From contig JAFXFO010000009.1 of assembly GCA_017520425.1 (NCBI GenBank), positions 30,270 through 94,269 on the forward strand: 64,000 nt of DNA, written 5' to 3'. The notes beneath the pieces are model-generated. The model ran no database searches and was not told the DNA's origin. It saw only the letters and a program-made list of their open reading frames with translations. Source of the stretch: Lachnospiraceae bacterium. GTDB lineage: Bacteria > Bacillota > Clostridia > Lachnospirales > Lachnospiraceae. The position numbers and the translations under genes were made by a program. This document shows, piece by piece, positions 8,426-11,711 of the stretch (position 1 is its first letter; each line of letters opens with the position of its first letter).

Positions 8426-8509
8426 TTACTTTTTGGCTACGATAGTAAATTCACCCGGAACTTCAGGGTTCTCCCATGCTTTTTTGTTTTGTACACTATA
8501 ATCTCTCAT
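8426..8509 (-). pseudogene. Internally deleted SAM methyltransferase remnant
   Basis: A 27-residue in-frame ORF starts MRDYSVQNKKAWE and ends NPEVPGEFTIVAKK. From memory of the family, the first block is like the extreme N-terminus and the second like the extreme C-terminus of a class I SAM methyltransferase common in Clostridia. The roughly 200 residues that should lie between them are missing without a frame change. The ATG still overlaps the end of the AraC/NTase gene, so the lost gene was probably its coupled neighbour. A methyltransferase origin is inference. Confidence 0.5.
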
Positions 8510-9485
8510 GTTTCCCCAACCACTTTTCTACCATTTTGTAATATTCCGTATCTTTCTCTGCATTATTGTAGTAAAATTCCAGAGATTGTACGGGAACCAC
8601 AAGATGGTCAATCTGTACCATGTCTGTATTTTTGTACAGAAACTCATCCGTATCATCGCCGGGACAATTGCCATAAAACATGCACCTTACTTTTATACCC
8701 TGATAGTTAATATCAAAATACTTAAATTCATCAGTTGTTTGTTTCGCGGCATCCGGGTAGCGGAAAAATGATTTAACGATTTCTTCATCCTTCCATTTAA
8801 AGGTCAGGCAAATCTTGTCCAAGGGAAATTCCAGACCATGGGCAAAAATCATAGTTTTGCCGTCAACCTTGAAGGGTATTTGGTTTTGAACCAGGCTACC
8901 TGCCAAAGAATGGAGTATGCTCCATTCATGCTTGTACTGCATCGTACCAATATCAATTTGATAAGTAGTGTTTGTTGGTTCCATATGGTTTCCTCCTATA
9001 TTGTTTATAGGAGTATTATAAGCAGTATTTTGGGTTTGTTCCTGTCCTGTATCATTTGATTTTGTCAGGTTTCCGGTATTCCAGCCGCCTTGAATAGTGA
9101 CTGCAATTTCCATAGGCGCAAATGACTTGGAAACAGGAAATCCGCGTCTGATAAAGCTGGGCGGAAATCCGTGGAATCTGGAAAATGCCTTGGTAAAGGC
9201 TTCGGGAGTTTCGTAACCGTATTTGTAGGCCATTTCGATGATTGGTGTATTTGAAGTTGTCAATTCTTCTGCGGCCATAGTTAACCTTCTGTTTCGGATA
9301 TACTCCATAATGGTCATTTCACAAACCACCTTGAAAAGAGAAGATAAGGTTGACTCACTGATGAAAAAATGCGAGGCAATGGAGGTTGGTGTCAACTCGT
9401 CGAAAAGATTCTCTTCGATGTGGTCTATTACCCGGTGTAACATGGAAAGGGAAAAAACATTTGTATTCTCGAAATCAGATGCCAT
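8496..9485 (-). CDS. AraC-type HTH fused to a nucleotidyltransferase-like domain
   Basis: Residues about 10-110 are a two-helix AraC DNA-binding domain (LTPTSIASHFFISESTLSSL and TPIIEMAYKYGYETPEAFTK, ending FHGFPPSF), here at the N-terminus rather than the usual C-terminus. After a linker, residues about 165-329 resemble an AbiEii/MNT-type nucleotidyltransferase (IPFKVDGKTMIFAHG, and a C-terminal VVPVQSLEFYYNNAEKDTEY helix pair); the usual catalytic Asp pair is not clear, so it may be only a sensor. Its ATG lies one base after the reverse-transcriptase stop, and its ribosome site AAGGAGG is made by the last codons of that gene, so the two are translationally coupled. Confidence 0.75.
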   Translation of the reverse strand: MASDFENTNVFSLSMLHRVIDHIEENLFDELTPTSIASHFFISESTLSSLFKVVCEMTIMEYIRNRRLTMAAEELTTSNTPIIEMAYKYGYETPEAFTKAFSRFHGFPPSFIRRGFPVSKSFAPMEIAVTIQGGWNTGNLTKSNDTGQEQTQNTAYNTPINNIGGNHMEPTNTTYQIDIGTMQYKHEWSILHSLAGSLVQNQIPFKVDGKTMIFAHGLEFPLDKICLTFKWKDEEIVKSFFRYPDAAKQTTDEFKYFDINYQGIKVRCMFYGNCPGDDTDEFLYKNTDMVQIDHLVVPVQSLEFYYNNAEKDTEYYKMVEKWLGKHERL

Positions 9486-9486
9486 G

Positions 9487-10719
9487 TTATTCCTCCTTGG
9501 GATTTGTAGCTTTGAATTGTTTATAGTATTCGTGCACCAGACTGCGATATCCCCACTCTTTCATTTGTTTGTAGGTAATGCGGTAATTGCCCTTGTAATG
9601 GCGGCCTGTGACACAGTAGCGGATATACTGTTGCATGTAAGTATCGATTTCTTTCAGGCCTTCGTCGGTGGTCAGACAGGGGAAAAACCAGCGGCTCCAG
9701 GAGAATTCGGTGCCCTCTCCATTGTCGTAGAACTTGCGGTTCATGGCTTTGATGAAGCCCTTTGCAGCCCGGTCTCCGGATAAATCTTTCTTTTGCTGCC
9801 AGCGTCGCAGTGCGTGAGCTTTTCGCTTAATCTTATCTTTCATCTTTCGGATGGTAACATCGGACAAATCCACCTTGTAATCATGAAATGAAAAACCTAA
9901 GAAGTCAAAAGGCTCACCGGGTTTGCTCAAGTGTACTTTGGAAGGATTTATAGCCAGTTTGTGTGTTTCAATATATTTATAGAGACGAGTTTGTAATCCG
10001 GCCAATTCATCTTCCGTATCCGCGAATATCAGAATATCATCGGAATAGCGGAAGTACACAATCCCTTCCTGCTCAAAGAGATGGTCCATTTCCATCAGGT
10101 ACACGTTGGCCAGGAAGGGTGAAATAGGAGTGCCGGCCATGGCCCCACGCTTTTCCGTAAAGATTTGTGTATTCCCATTCTATTCATAAATGGCTTGGTC
10201 AGTAGTCAGAAGATGAAAAAGAAAATCATAAACGGCAGAATCTTCTGACTTTAAGAACGCAAGCTTACTAAGAAGAAGAGGCACATCTATGGAATTGAAA
10301 TAGTTGCTGATATCCACCTTTAAGCAGTACTTTTGGTGGATGTTATCGGTATGCCGAAGGCGACGTACCGCATCCTTTACCCCATAATGTCTGCGAAAAG
10401 CATAGCAATTACGGGCAAATAAGTGATCGTAACGGAAAAGAAGGTAGGTCAGCATCTTTAGGAGCAAATTAAAATCTCCTTGGAAGGAATAGACCACTCT
10501 TTTCTTGGATACGCCGCTTTTATTGACTTCCTTTTTGAAGGGGAGTGGCAAAGCAGAACCACACTCAGAGATGCAGGCAAGAATCGGAAGATACCTTTTT
10601 TCGACAATGTATTCTTCCAGTTCTTTTTGCTCTCTGGTTGATAAGTGTTGTTTTTCAATTTTATAGTCTAAAAATTCCTGCCAGTATTCGGGACAGGAAA
10701 GCTGTTCTTGGATGGTCAT
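9487..10719 (-). pseudogene. Reverse transcriptase interrupted by one in-frame amber codon
   Basis: Start 10719 (AGAGGAG 8 bases upstream, MTIQEQLS). The frame runs to TAG at 10182-10180 and continues in the same frame without another stop to 9487, about 410 codons. Before the stop lie a basic region and palm motif DISNYFNSID; after it come GTPISPFLANVYL, catalytic FRYSDDILIF, INPSKV, FLGF and a C-terminal basic thumb region (YRITYKQMKEWGYRSL). All catalytic aspartates are present but split by the amber codon, so only read-through would give active enzyme. It lacks the DGR-type SQ motif, and clear retron NAxxH and VTG motifs were not placed. Coupled to the AraC/NTase gene; a folded non-coding segment lies directly upstream. 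Confidence 0.8.
10180..10182 (-). other. Amber codon inside the reverse-transcriptase frame
   Basis: The codon lies between ATT TAT GAA and AAT GGG AAT; both flanks are in one frame and read as continuous reverse-transcriptase sequence (TDQAIYE then NGNTQIFTEKRGAMAGT). TAG is used as an ordinary stop elsewhere in the window (for example the genes ending at 467, 26353 and 54109), so general amber recoding is unlikely. Confidence 0.85.
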
Positions 10720-10764
10720 GGGTGGTCTCCTCTTGTAGCCCTGCTTTAGAGCCATTCCTTAAGT

Positions 10765-11071
10765 TTTGCTTCAGAGCATACATTCGCAAAACCGCCTCTT
10801 CGAGGCTTTTCTTTTGCTCATGCATGGCTACTCGCCATATAATTTCCCCAAAACAGGCTTTACCAAGCCAGCTTGGAACGCCTGCTTATTGGGAAATTGC
10901 ATGGCTCTGAAGCAAAGCAAAAAAAGAAAGAGAAATTACTTTGAAGCAACTAAAGCGTGCTTAGTTGTACCAGACTGAACATATCCCTACTACCTGCAAA
11001 GCACCATAACGGATATGGGAATGCTTCATCTGTCACAGGTGTAACAATAGCGTCACATTTCTCTTTCTTTT
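10765..11071 (-). ncRNA. Candidate structured RNA upstream of the reverse transcriptase
   Basis: Two adjacent blocks, each enclosed by a perfect inverted repeat. Block 1: TTTGCTTCAGAGC (10765-10777) and its complement at 10904-10916 enclose a long nested hairpin (AATTTCCC 10841-10848 with GGGAAATT 10891-10898, CAGGC 10854-10858 with GCCTG 10880-10884, CCAAGC/GCTTGG 10863-10876) and two smaller ones (10824-10838; 10786-10817). Block 2: a 15-bp repeat (10922-10936 and 11057-11071) encloses stems 10947-10967 and 10980-11017. No ORF explains it. Arms enclosing hairpins just before a reverse transcriptase resemble retron msr-msd or defence-RT template RNAs; a small inverted-repeat element is the alternative. 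Transcription is not shown. Confidence 0.45.
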
Positions 11072-11120
11072 CTATTTCTATCACACGCATAGCGTGGAAC
11101 AGACTTGATTAAGTTGTAAA

Positions 11121-11711
11121 TTAGCTAATGGCCTTGCGGATTCTTTCTTCCATATAGTCCAATTCGTTGGGCATATACTCGAAGAAGTCCATCATAGGAG
11201 TACTGTTTTGGTCACAGTAATCCTTGATTTTACGGTTTGCCATATGTGTATATTCCTGATAAGAATCATAGACATTGATAAACAATACTCTTTGGCCATT
11301 CTTATAAATCGCATAGGAGATATCCTTGGGAAGACGATAGCAACCGCCACGTTTGTAAAGCTCGTAGCCTGCCTCTGCTTCAATGGAATCCGCAGAAATG
11401 TTTTCCTGTATCTCAAACTCGCCGATTTTATTTAATACATCAGGAAGCTTCTGTGCAAAAGGTCTGTCATCGTAGGAATCGTTTGAGCTTTTGGCAACGG
11501 TGGTTGACGTATGGGTGGTGGAAGCAGCCGTATTGGAAGAAGGCACATTCACAGACTTGCGAATCGCATCATCTGTCTTACTCATTCCGCCACGTAATCC
11601 CTTGTCTACAGTAGTATGTACATTGTCGTATACAGCATCGTTTACCGCTCTGTTCATAGCACGTTCTGCTGCCTTTAAGCCGGTTTTTAATAAATTATCT
11701 AAAAATCCCAT
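11121..11711 (-). CDS. Hypothetical protein with N-terminal amphipathic helix
   Basis: Not recognised. About 196 residues: an N-terminal helix (MGFLDNLLKTGLKAAERAMN), a Ser/Thr-rich linker around residues 60-75, and a C-terminal alpha/beta domain of about 110 residues (FEIQENISADSIEAEAGYEL, later NELDYMEERIRKAI). No signal peptide or transmembrane segment once the start is set at 11711, which has GGGAGG 6 bases upstream; the longer reading would add a spurious hydrophobic stretch. A good minus-strand promoter lies upstream. The N-terminus could bind a membrane surface. Confidence 0.75.
   Translation of the reverse strand: MGFLDNLLKTGLKAAERAMNRAVNDAVYDNVHTTVDKGLRGGMSKTDDAIRKSVNVPSSNTAASTTHTSTTVAKSSNDSYDDRPFAQKLPDVLNKIGEFEIQENISADSIEAEAGYELYKRGGCYRLPKDISYAIYKNGQRVLFINVYDSYQEYTHMANRKIKDYCDQNSTPMMDFFEYMPNELDYMEERIRKAIS

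Follow-up and report, generated by a model that had tools for sequence, protein, structure and literature searches.

A UG26 reverse transcriptase with a conserved pseudoknotted RNA and a partner protein, and a probably broken copy of this unit in a Lachnospiraceae bacterium

Introduction

With which of its neighbours does a poorly known reverse transcriptase (RT) form a system, and can such a system be one of antiphage defence? This question is raised by an RT locus in a 64,000-nucleotide stretch of DNA from a Lachnospiraceae bacterium (contig JAFXFO010000009.1 of GenBank assembly GCA_017520425.1, positions 30,270 to 94,269), and this whole stretch is called the window below. A first-pass annotation of the window had suggested an RT system of an uncharacterised kind, with an RNA upstream and without a clear retron character, which agrees with the match of the RT to the UG26 class at 541.8 bits. 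UG RTs are RTs of the unknown group, which includes the defence-associated RTs (DRTs). Here, we show that a partner protein, a pseudoknotted RNA and the RT occur together as a three-part unit. The locus in the window is a divergent, probably broken member of this poorly known but listed RT class.

Results and discussion

The RT is a UG26 enzyme with an in-frame stop

Transcription of the locus on the minus strand runs through the partner gene (11711-11121), the RNA, a repeat (10911-10770), the RT frame and an AraC gene. The features are listed below by their positions in the window.

11121 to 11711, minus strand: partner gene, 196 amino acids (aa), frame open; divergent member of a UG26-associated family with the PADLOC name RTasCOG2852
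About 10919 to 11070, minus strand: UG26 noncoding RNA (ncRNA), made up of Rfam RT-5 plus the closing stem P1, hairpin P2, 3' hairpin P5 and a U-run
11035 to 11039, minus strand: 5' strand of the pseudoknot, CCUGU, which pairs with 10993-10997 and is paired in the window
10993 to 10997, minus strand: 3' strand of the pseudoknot, GCAGG, in the P4 loop
10770 to 10911, strand given as ".": dispersed repeat of 142 bp, inserted
9487 to 10719, minus strand: UG26 RT frame matching the PADLOC profile, 410 codons ahead of its final stop, an in-frame TAG counted as one
10036 to 10047, minus strand: catalytic motif YSDD, with Y225, D227 and D228 in 110/110 loci and S226 in 109/110
8496 to 9485, minus strand: AraC-type regulator gene, translationally coupled to the RT frame and outside the conserved system

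The RT frame begins with an ATG at 10719, ahead of which stands AGAGGAG, and ends with a TAA at 9487-9489. When it was compared with RT-class profiles, the best match was the PADLOC RT_UG26 profile PDLC03764 (541.8 bits, 5.6e-163), which was covered from position 1 to 396 of 398 with one stop inside, and this was the sole such match in the source genome (2.9 Mb, 90% complete). Judged by these profiles, the RT belongs to UG26, a class within the UG/DRT family that is still uncharacterised. All 26 RTs of our alignment A1 also match the generic RT profile, UG27, UG4, UG17, Drt9, Drt3a, Drt2, UG18 and others. For example, L006, the first member of A1, scored 584.2 bits with UG26, 126.7 with generic RT, 112.5 with Cas1-fusion, 109.4 with UG27, 102.8 with UG4 and 101.4 with UG17, followed by Drt9 (92.4), UG18 (88.6), Drt3a (82.1), UG21 (78.3), Drt2 (71.2) and RT_I-B (52.4 bits), which was the best profile shown that was read as retron-type. 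Searched against solved structures, the UG26 family profile found group II intron and other RTs first, and DRT9, DRT2, Drt3a and telomerase lower. The class of the RT does not follow from its sequence alone.

Two better known kinds of RT element were compared with the locus. In retrons, an RT is accompanied by an upstream structured RNA whose ends pair, and the UG26 RT also has an upstream structured RNA with pairing ends; however, UG26 fits the RT far better than the retron-type profiles shown do (584.2 vs 52.4 bits in L006), and the NCBIfam retron models remained below cut-off in the halves of the window RT. The locus differs from a group II intron as well, with no intron RNA family above its gathering threshold in the window and the maturase model TIGR04416 at 77.4 bits against a cut-off of 300.

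The frame of about 410 codons with the YSDD motif, which the first-pass annotation had noted, is present, but it is interrupted by an in-frame TAG at 10180-10182 (minus strand) which had been missed. The TAG is codon 180 of the RT, leaving 179 codons before it and 230 behind it, and it falls in a length-variable stretch, in a column where 104 of the 109 relatives have a gap. The window copy has lost none of the 59 RT residues whose columns are conserved in at least 97% of the 109 other loci (41/41 for the part behind the TAG), and the median relative also keeps all 59. Because these residues are kept and the TAG stands in a column mostly empty in relatives, we consider the TAG to be young, or an assembly error, or read through. 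The nearest relative found is 56% identical to the window copy. A C-terminal tyrosine pair, Y398/Y399 as counted from the ATG at 10719, is tyrosine in 95/110 and 100/110 loci, respectively. Among the other 38 RT matches in genomes of the bacterial family, three are listed with a stop inside, and in G234 and G332 this stop is the last codon of the match; partial matches were seen only in G182 and G241 (2/38). The third match with a stop, G175:C12:123264-124451, is a second UG26 copy with a TGA inside, which is present alongside a stop-free copy in the same genome.

A covarying, pseudoknotted RNA lies upstream of UG26 RTs

The folded noncoding segment that had been noted upstream of the RT proved to be an RT-5 RNA with covariation, but part of it (10770-10911) is a dispersed repeat. 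Rfam RT-5 (RF03026) matches 10932-11044 with 52.8 bits against a gathering threshold of 45.7, and our covariance model R1 of a longer RNA matches 10913-11077 with 106.1 bits, the window itself being one of the 27 R1 training sequences. The fold energy of 10919-11064 is modest (z -1.93, with 9/200 shuffles as good), and the folded RNA is accepted as real because of covariation in homologues, not because of folding energy. In an alignment of 96 rows (93 distinct), 94.2% of cells are paired, compared with 32.6-46.1% for slid structures, 37 of the 40 model pairs change on both sides, and 0/500 shuffles are as high on all five measures. This alignment was fitted to the nested helices, and the pseudoknot is outside the model yet was picked on one sequence. 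All five positions of the pseudoknot (CCUGC/GCAGG in the family) are paired in 93/93 distinct sequences, with changes on both sides at each position.

The RNA has a length of about 150 nt, including the closing stem, the U-run and the 5-bp covarying pseudoknot. In the window, P1 is a perfect 13-bp closing stem of 11058-11070 with 10923-10935, followed by the U-run, as read by eye from the sequence. The window RNA agrees with Rfam RT-5 in scoring above gathering and in the position upstream of a UG26 RT; the closing stem, P2 and the covarying pseudoknot are added here, whereas the 104-position Rfam model has a structure line without them.

Apart from the window, 29 UG26 loci of the bacterial family were scanned with RT-5, which was found upstream of the RT in 28 at E<=0.05 and above gathering in 25. 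The sole miss, L013, is at a contig end, with an RNA and a partner near the start of another contig of the same genome. Using R1, a match was obtained in 106/110 UG26 loci, that is, in 96/100 sources of one scan (window included) and in 10 more loci; the four misses are L013, L031 (which has a weak RT-5 match), L059 and L105, and the 110 loci contain near-duplicates. R1 also matched in 78 of 80 GTDB loci, which were drawn as the 80 best from 405 confirmed relatives and none of which was used to build R1, although L099 and L117 are identical to R1-building loci and L085 is 98% identical to one. These comparisons point to the RT-5 RNA as a near-constant, pseudoknotted neighbour of UG26, and this, together with the corrected partner gene, is the new content of the present work. 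Among the matches listed in our literature search there was no paper on RT-5 nor on UG26 function, and the link may already be in print.

We also searched the 96 RNAs for a template. The P4 loop holds a hypervariable single-stranded piece, which is 6-13 nt long in 81/96 RNAs and, with insertions, as long as 120 nt. Such insertions (63 nt in L106, 84 nt in L095 and 120 nt in L034) provide a natural test of the P4 loop as template. Direct repeats are present in the P4 loop region of 31/96 RNAs (shuffled mean 26.6, maximum 36). A 4-mer repeat, GUAC..GUAC, occurs in 63/96 RNAs (shuffled partners: mean 54.3, maximum 59), and it is a fixed sequence that overlaps a P3 strand. Other frequent repeat pairs exceed the shuffles too, such as 246/265 (36 vs a maximum of 16), which is the P5 stem itself. 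The excess of direct repeats over shuffles around P2 (60/96 vs 17.2) and from P5 to P1 (91/96 vs 68.9) is, in our interpretation, due to stem sequences and shared consensus. An A-B-A' template as in DRT10 was rejected, since in none of the frequent repeat pairs do both copies vary together. When we looked for a promoter of the RNA itself, no clear excess of -10-like sequences was seen in the 96 RNAs (exact matches 5 vs 1.5; with one mismatch 19 vs 17.2).

The partner gene lies beyond the RNA

The usual position of the partner gene is upstream of the RNA; a variant order of RNA, partner and RT is seen in L020, where the partner ends 26 bases ahead of the RT match. A profile built from the window partner alone found nine other loci at E<=0.001 (best 2.4e-28) in 387 upstream open reading frames (ORFs), and after iteration the profile recognised a partner in 98/110 UG26 loci, window included, when ORFs within 1400 nt upstream of the RT were searched. 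Two of the 12 misses, L013 and L022, are contig ends.

The partner proteins of 70 of the 97 other loci were aligned with that of the window (alignment A3, 71 proteins). The PADLOC model RTasCOG2852, which is filed under DRT, matches 63 of the 71, with no match to the partners of the window, L020, L023 and L033 (E up to 5). The N-terminus of the family is variable, and the conserved C-terminal part contains N, Y and R at 71/71, 70/71 and 70/71, respectively, and this near-invariant N..Y..R is kept in the window partner. A glutamate present in 61/71 proteins, with Asn at that position in the window copy, would be compatible with a nuclease-like fold; the canonical (D/E)xK or ExK spacing is not evident in the 71 proteins. 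COG2852 is the very-short-patch-repair endonuclease, and a search for Pfam DUF559 in 150 genomes of the bacterial family found none for comparison with the partner. The locus thus resembles the PADLOC pair of RT_UG26 and RTasCOG2852 in the RT score given above and in the 63 matching partners. It differs in that PADLOC has protein models only and no RNA, that the window partner is missed, and that the window RT contains a TAG.

Linkage, distribution and chromosomal sites

In 397 genomes of the bacterial family, the UG26 RT was found in 37, the RNA in 32 and the partner in 25 (RT E<=1e-60; RNA E<=1e-4 plus stricter filters; partner E<=1e-5). Every RNA- or partner-bearing genome lies within the 37 RT genomes, a result which is weakened by the RNA and partner models having been trained on UG26 neighbours, partly of the same genomes, such that diverged copies elsewhere could escape. 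The two genomes with two RTs, G039 and G175, have two RNAs and two partners each, and the remaining 35/37 hold one copy. In addition, RT identity is correlated with partner identity (r=0.845, 4719 locus pairs at different sites) and with RNA identity (r=0.829, 3798 locus pairs at different sites), in each case with 0/1000 permutations as high; shared ancestry without exchange would look alike.

In all 18 close pairs of loci (RT at least 78.7% aa identity), the chromosomal site is shared; the flanks agree on both sides in 13 pairs and only on the left in 5. These 18 come from the 45 most similar locus pairs listed, and three of them consist of duplicate records of a single locus. More distant UG26 relatives are at differing sites. 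The cassette is not behaving as an active mobile element, because all listed close pairs share their site. UG26 is absent from both other genomes of the same genus, in which the partner protein had no match either, and hence no empty site is shown. Beyond the family UG26 is rare: it was found in 2/398 genomes of the phylum, one being the window's own and the other from the same family. In IMG/VR there was a single match, which is 27% identical.

The AraC-type gene downstream of the RT

The translational coupling of the downstream gene, as first described, is correct: its ATG is one base past the RT stop, and its ribosome site is made of the final RT codons AAG GAG GAA TAA. The description of its product as an AraC helix-turn-helix and nucleotidyltransferase (NTase)-like protein held for the AraC part, as the domain search gave HTH_18 at 1.5e-18, but no NTase domain was found among the families shown (including the best 25 of 31 in one scan), and the C-terminal part had no PDB match. 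Among the downstream ORFs listed for the 29 UG26 loci that the bacterial family has besides the window (two of which, L010 and L034, have less than 600 bases of downstream sequence), there is no AraC gene. In all 110 loci, no widely shared downstream gene was seen among the 14 largest neighbour clusters, the best being an ABC-transporter cluster with 10 downstream members. Homologues of the AraC protein were found in 2 other genomes of 200, neither of them among the 37 genomes with UG26.

The proposal that the AraC protein is the effector or regulator of the RT system can draw on the coupled start codon and ribosome site; the pair is not conserved, however, and an effector with an NTase domain was rejected for this and for the missing domain, so that we give it next to no probability. 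From these gene neighbourhoods, the AraC gene looks like an accidental neighbour of the RT. Conservation is found on the other side of the RT. Its homologues have unrelated downstream genes, with the AraC neighbour not kept, but upstream they share the covarying RNA and, beyond it, a further conserved gene. This true partner gene (11121-11711) was overlooked in the first-pass annotation, as were the inserted repeat and the TAG. For the window itself, the value of the present analysis is thus corrective, with regard to a wrong neighbour, a hidden stop codon and an inserted repeat.

A possible function and its alternatives

The reading that we favour, and consider rather probable, is a Class-2-like DRT cassette which is RNA-templated, probably tyrosine-primed and antiphage by analogy, with the copy in the window most likely recently inactivated. 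The RT is read as Class-2-like because UG26 RTs also match the profiles of UG17 (DRT10), Drt9, Drt3a and Drt2. UG17 is DRT10, and DRT2, DRT3a, DRT9 and DRT10 are treated as Class 2 UG systems which copy a cis-encoded RNA (PMC12632851, PMC13174585). UG26 is similar to these in having a conserved structured cis ncRNA. Particularly, DRT10 is described as a tripartite cassette of a cis ncRNA, a small accessory protein and an RT (PMC12632851), the RT being related to that of UG26. The UG26 partner, in contrast, is not recognised as SLATT, the only PADLOC model matching the 71 partners being RTasCOG2852, and the A-B-A' signature by which DRT10 makes tandem repeats was not found in UG26 RNAs. In DRT9 (UG28), priming has been linked to two conserved C-terminal tyrosines (PMC12483538). 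UG26 shares with it a cis ncRNA, a C-terminal tyrosine pair and a related RT profile, but the RNA family and the partner differ, and no poly-U template is shown for UG26.

In such a cassette, the RNA would end at the U-run behind the closing stem, bind the RT and present a short single-stranded stretch as template. The RT would then act as its own primer, through a hydroxyl of the conserved C-terminal tyrosine pair as implicated for DRT9, and the product of synthesis would be a defined, probably repetitive single-stranded complementary DNA (cDNA). This cDNA, or its change upon phage infection, may control the partner protein and thereby lead to antiphage defence, as in DRT9 and DRT10. A defence role is suggested by analogy, with the RT class, the scattered occurrence and the form of the cassette as its grounds. 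A further-reaching version is tentative and, in our judgement, on the unlikely side: UG26 may be an undescribed RNA-templated immune RT, for which RT-5 would be the obligate pseudoknotted template carrier and whose cDNA would gate a new family of effectors or sensors. Its template mode would be unlike the DRT2 loop, the DRT9 U-tract and the DRT10 A-B-A' arrangement, with the hypervariable P4 loop or a conserved UUUAA joint as candidate templates, and the nuclease-like fold of the partner, if any, would be without the usual catalytic pattern.

Several results weigh against a defence cassette of this kind. No frequent repeat pair with both copies varying together was found in the 96 RNAs. Ten of the 108 loci with enough upstream sequence (L015, L016, L025, L026, L029, L030, L031, L059, L070 and L105) have no recognisable partner and carry other ORFs there. 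The 7 partner proteins tested had no Pfam family above cut-off, and a PDB search gave nothing convincing (best E 0.084), and for these reasons the nuclease identity of COG2852 was not adopted. One query, run at 1e-20, gave no UG26 match in plasmid or phage records. UG26 was reported in cold-seep viruses in 2023 (PMC10504277), which our plasmid and phage searches do not reproduce; that paper describes the listed viral RTs besides diversity-generating retroelements and retrons with "roles and mechanisms remaining unknown". Nor was a clear defence-island signal seen: among 84 neighbour ORFs (of 147 listed) at 42/80 GTDB loci, few PADLOC matches were seen at 1e-10, with 17 models in total (mad3 in 5/84, AriA in 2, mad8 in 2 and 14 further models in 1 each), and the 25 neighbour Pfam families shown of 66 are mostly of metabolic, transport or core types; these counts stand without a background rate.

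These points are in part those on which other explanations rest. An RT domesticated for a chromosomal role outside defence, such as repair or regulation, and inherited mainly vertically would account for the 18/18 listed close pairs at shared sites, the plasmid and phage searches without a match and the mostly non-defence neighbours. We regard it as unlikely, given the patchy spread (37/397 family genomes, absence from genus mates, 2/398 phylum genomes) and the antiphage RTs among the profiles that UG26 RTs match. Still less probable is an untemplated polymerisation as in Class 1, Abi-like, with the RNA serving only as scaffold or regulator; the missing A-B-A' signature is in its favour, but the strong linkage of RNA and RT and the similarity to RNA-templated Class 2 profiles argue against it. 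A mobile retroelement, which would insert copies of itself at new sites by means of the RT, the structured RNA and a nuclease-like partner, would fit the presence of an RT, a structured RNA and a protein labelled after an endonuclease COG, as well as the differing sites of more distant relatives. The sharing of at least one side by 18/18 listed close pairs, the single copy in 35/37 UG26 genomes and the partner without evident (D/E)xK spacing make it very improbable, and as a recent behaviour it was rejected on account of the shared sites.

The state of the window copy is a question of its own. The copy may be functional if the TAG arose in sequencing or assembly, or if translation reads through it, and we hold this to be a serious though less probable alternative. 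It is favoured by the retained conserved residues on both sides of the TAG and the emptiness of its column in relatives, by the open frame of the partner, and by the RNA closing stem and pseudoknot, which are kept. On the other side, the stop is present in the single assembly examined, the repeat also interrupts the stretch before the RT, and the window RNA forms only 30/40 model pairs, the third lowest value of the 96 rows (median 38). The pseudoknot and the inner hairpin are complete in this row, and the missing pairs are in P1, P3, P4 and P5 of the fitted alignment; by eye, several of them are register shifts, and the pairing of P1, P4 and P5 improves when the register is moved. Recent inactivation is preferred as somewhat more likely than a working copy, although this claim rests on one codon of one assembly.

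The orphan RNA family RT-5 gains a specific set of protein partners, and UG26 moves from a profile name to a defined three-part cassette with a structure model. Uninterrupted copies exist in rumen Clostridia, e.g. in Ruminococcus flavefaciens MA2007 (L064). If the RNA-templated reading is true, UG26 would be another way for bacterial RTs to turn a short RNA into immune DNA.

The dispersed repeat between the RNA and the RT

The window copy of the repeat (10770-10911) carries the terminal inverted repeats TTCAGAGC/GCTCTGAA. It gave 16 BLAST matches in its own genome, itself included; of the 15 others (L121-L135), 5 cover exactly the same 142 bp, and the start agrees in 8 and the end in 8. Rfam Clostridiales-1 matches at 10748-10908 with 36.3 bits, which is below the gathering threshold of 48, and no match to it at E<=0.05 was found in the 29 other UG26 loci. 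The repeat is a relative of Clostridiales-1, and this family may be a small transposable or REP-like (repetitive extragenic palindrome-like) element rather than an RNA gene. The relative genome G332 contains 11 Clostridiales-1 matches, 3 of which are over the cut-off. The spacer between the RNA and the RT is enlarged elsewhere by seemingly unrelated sequence, namely by tandem repeats in L017 and by a long hairpin in L018.

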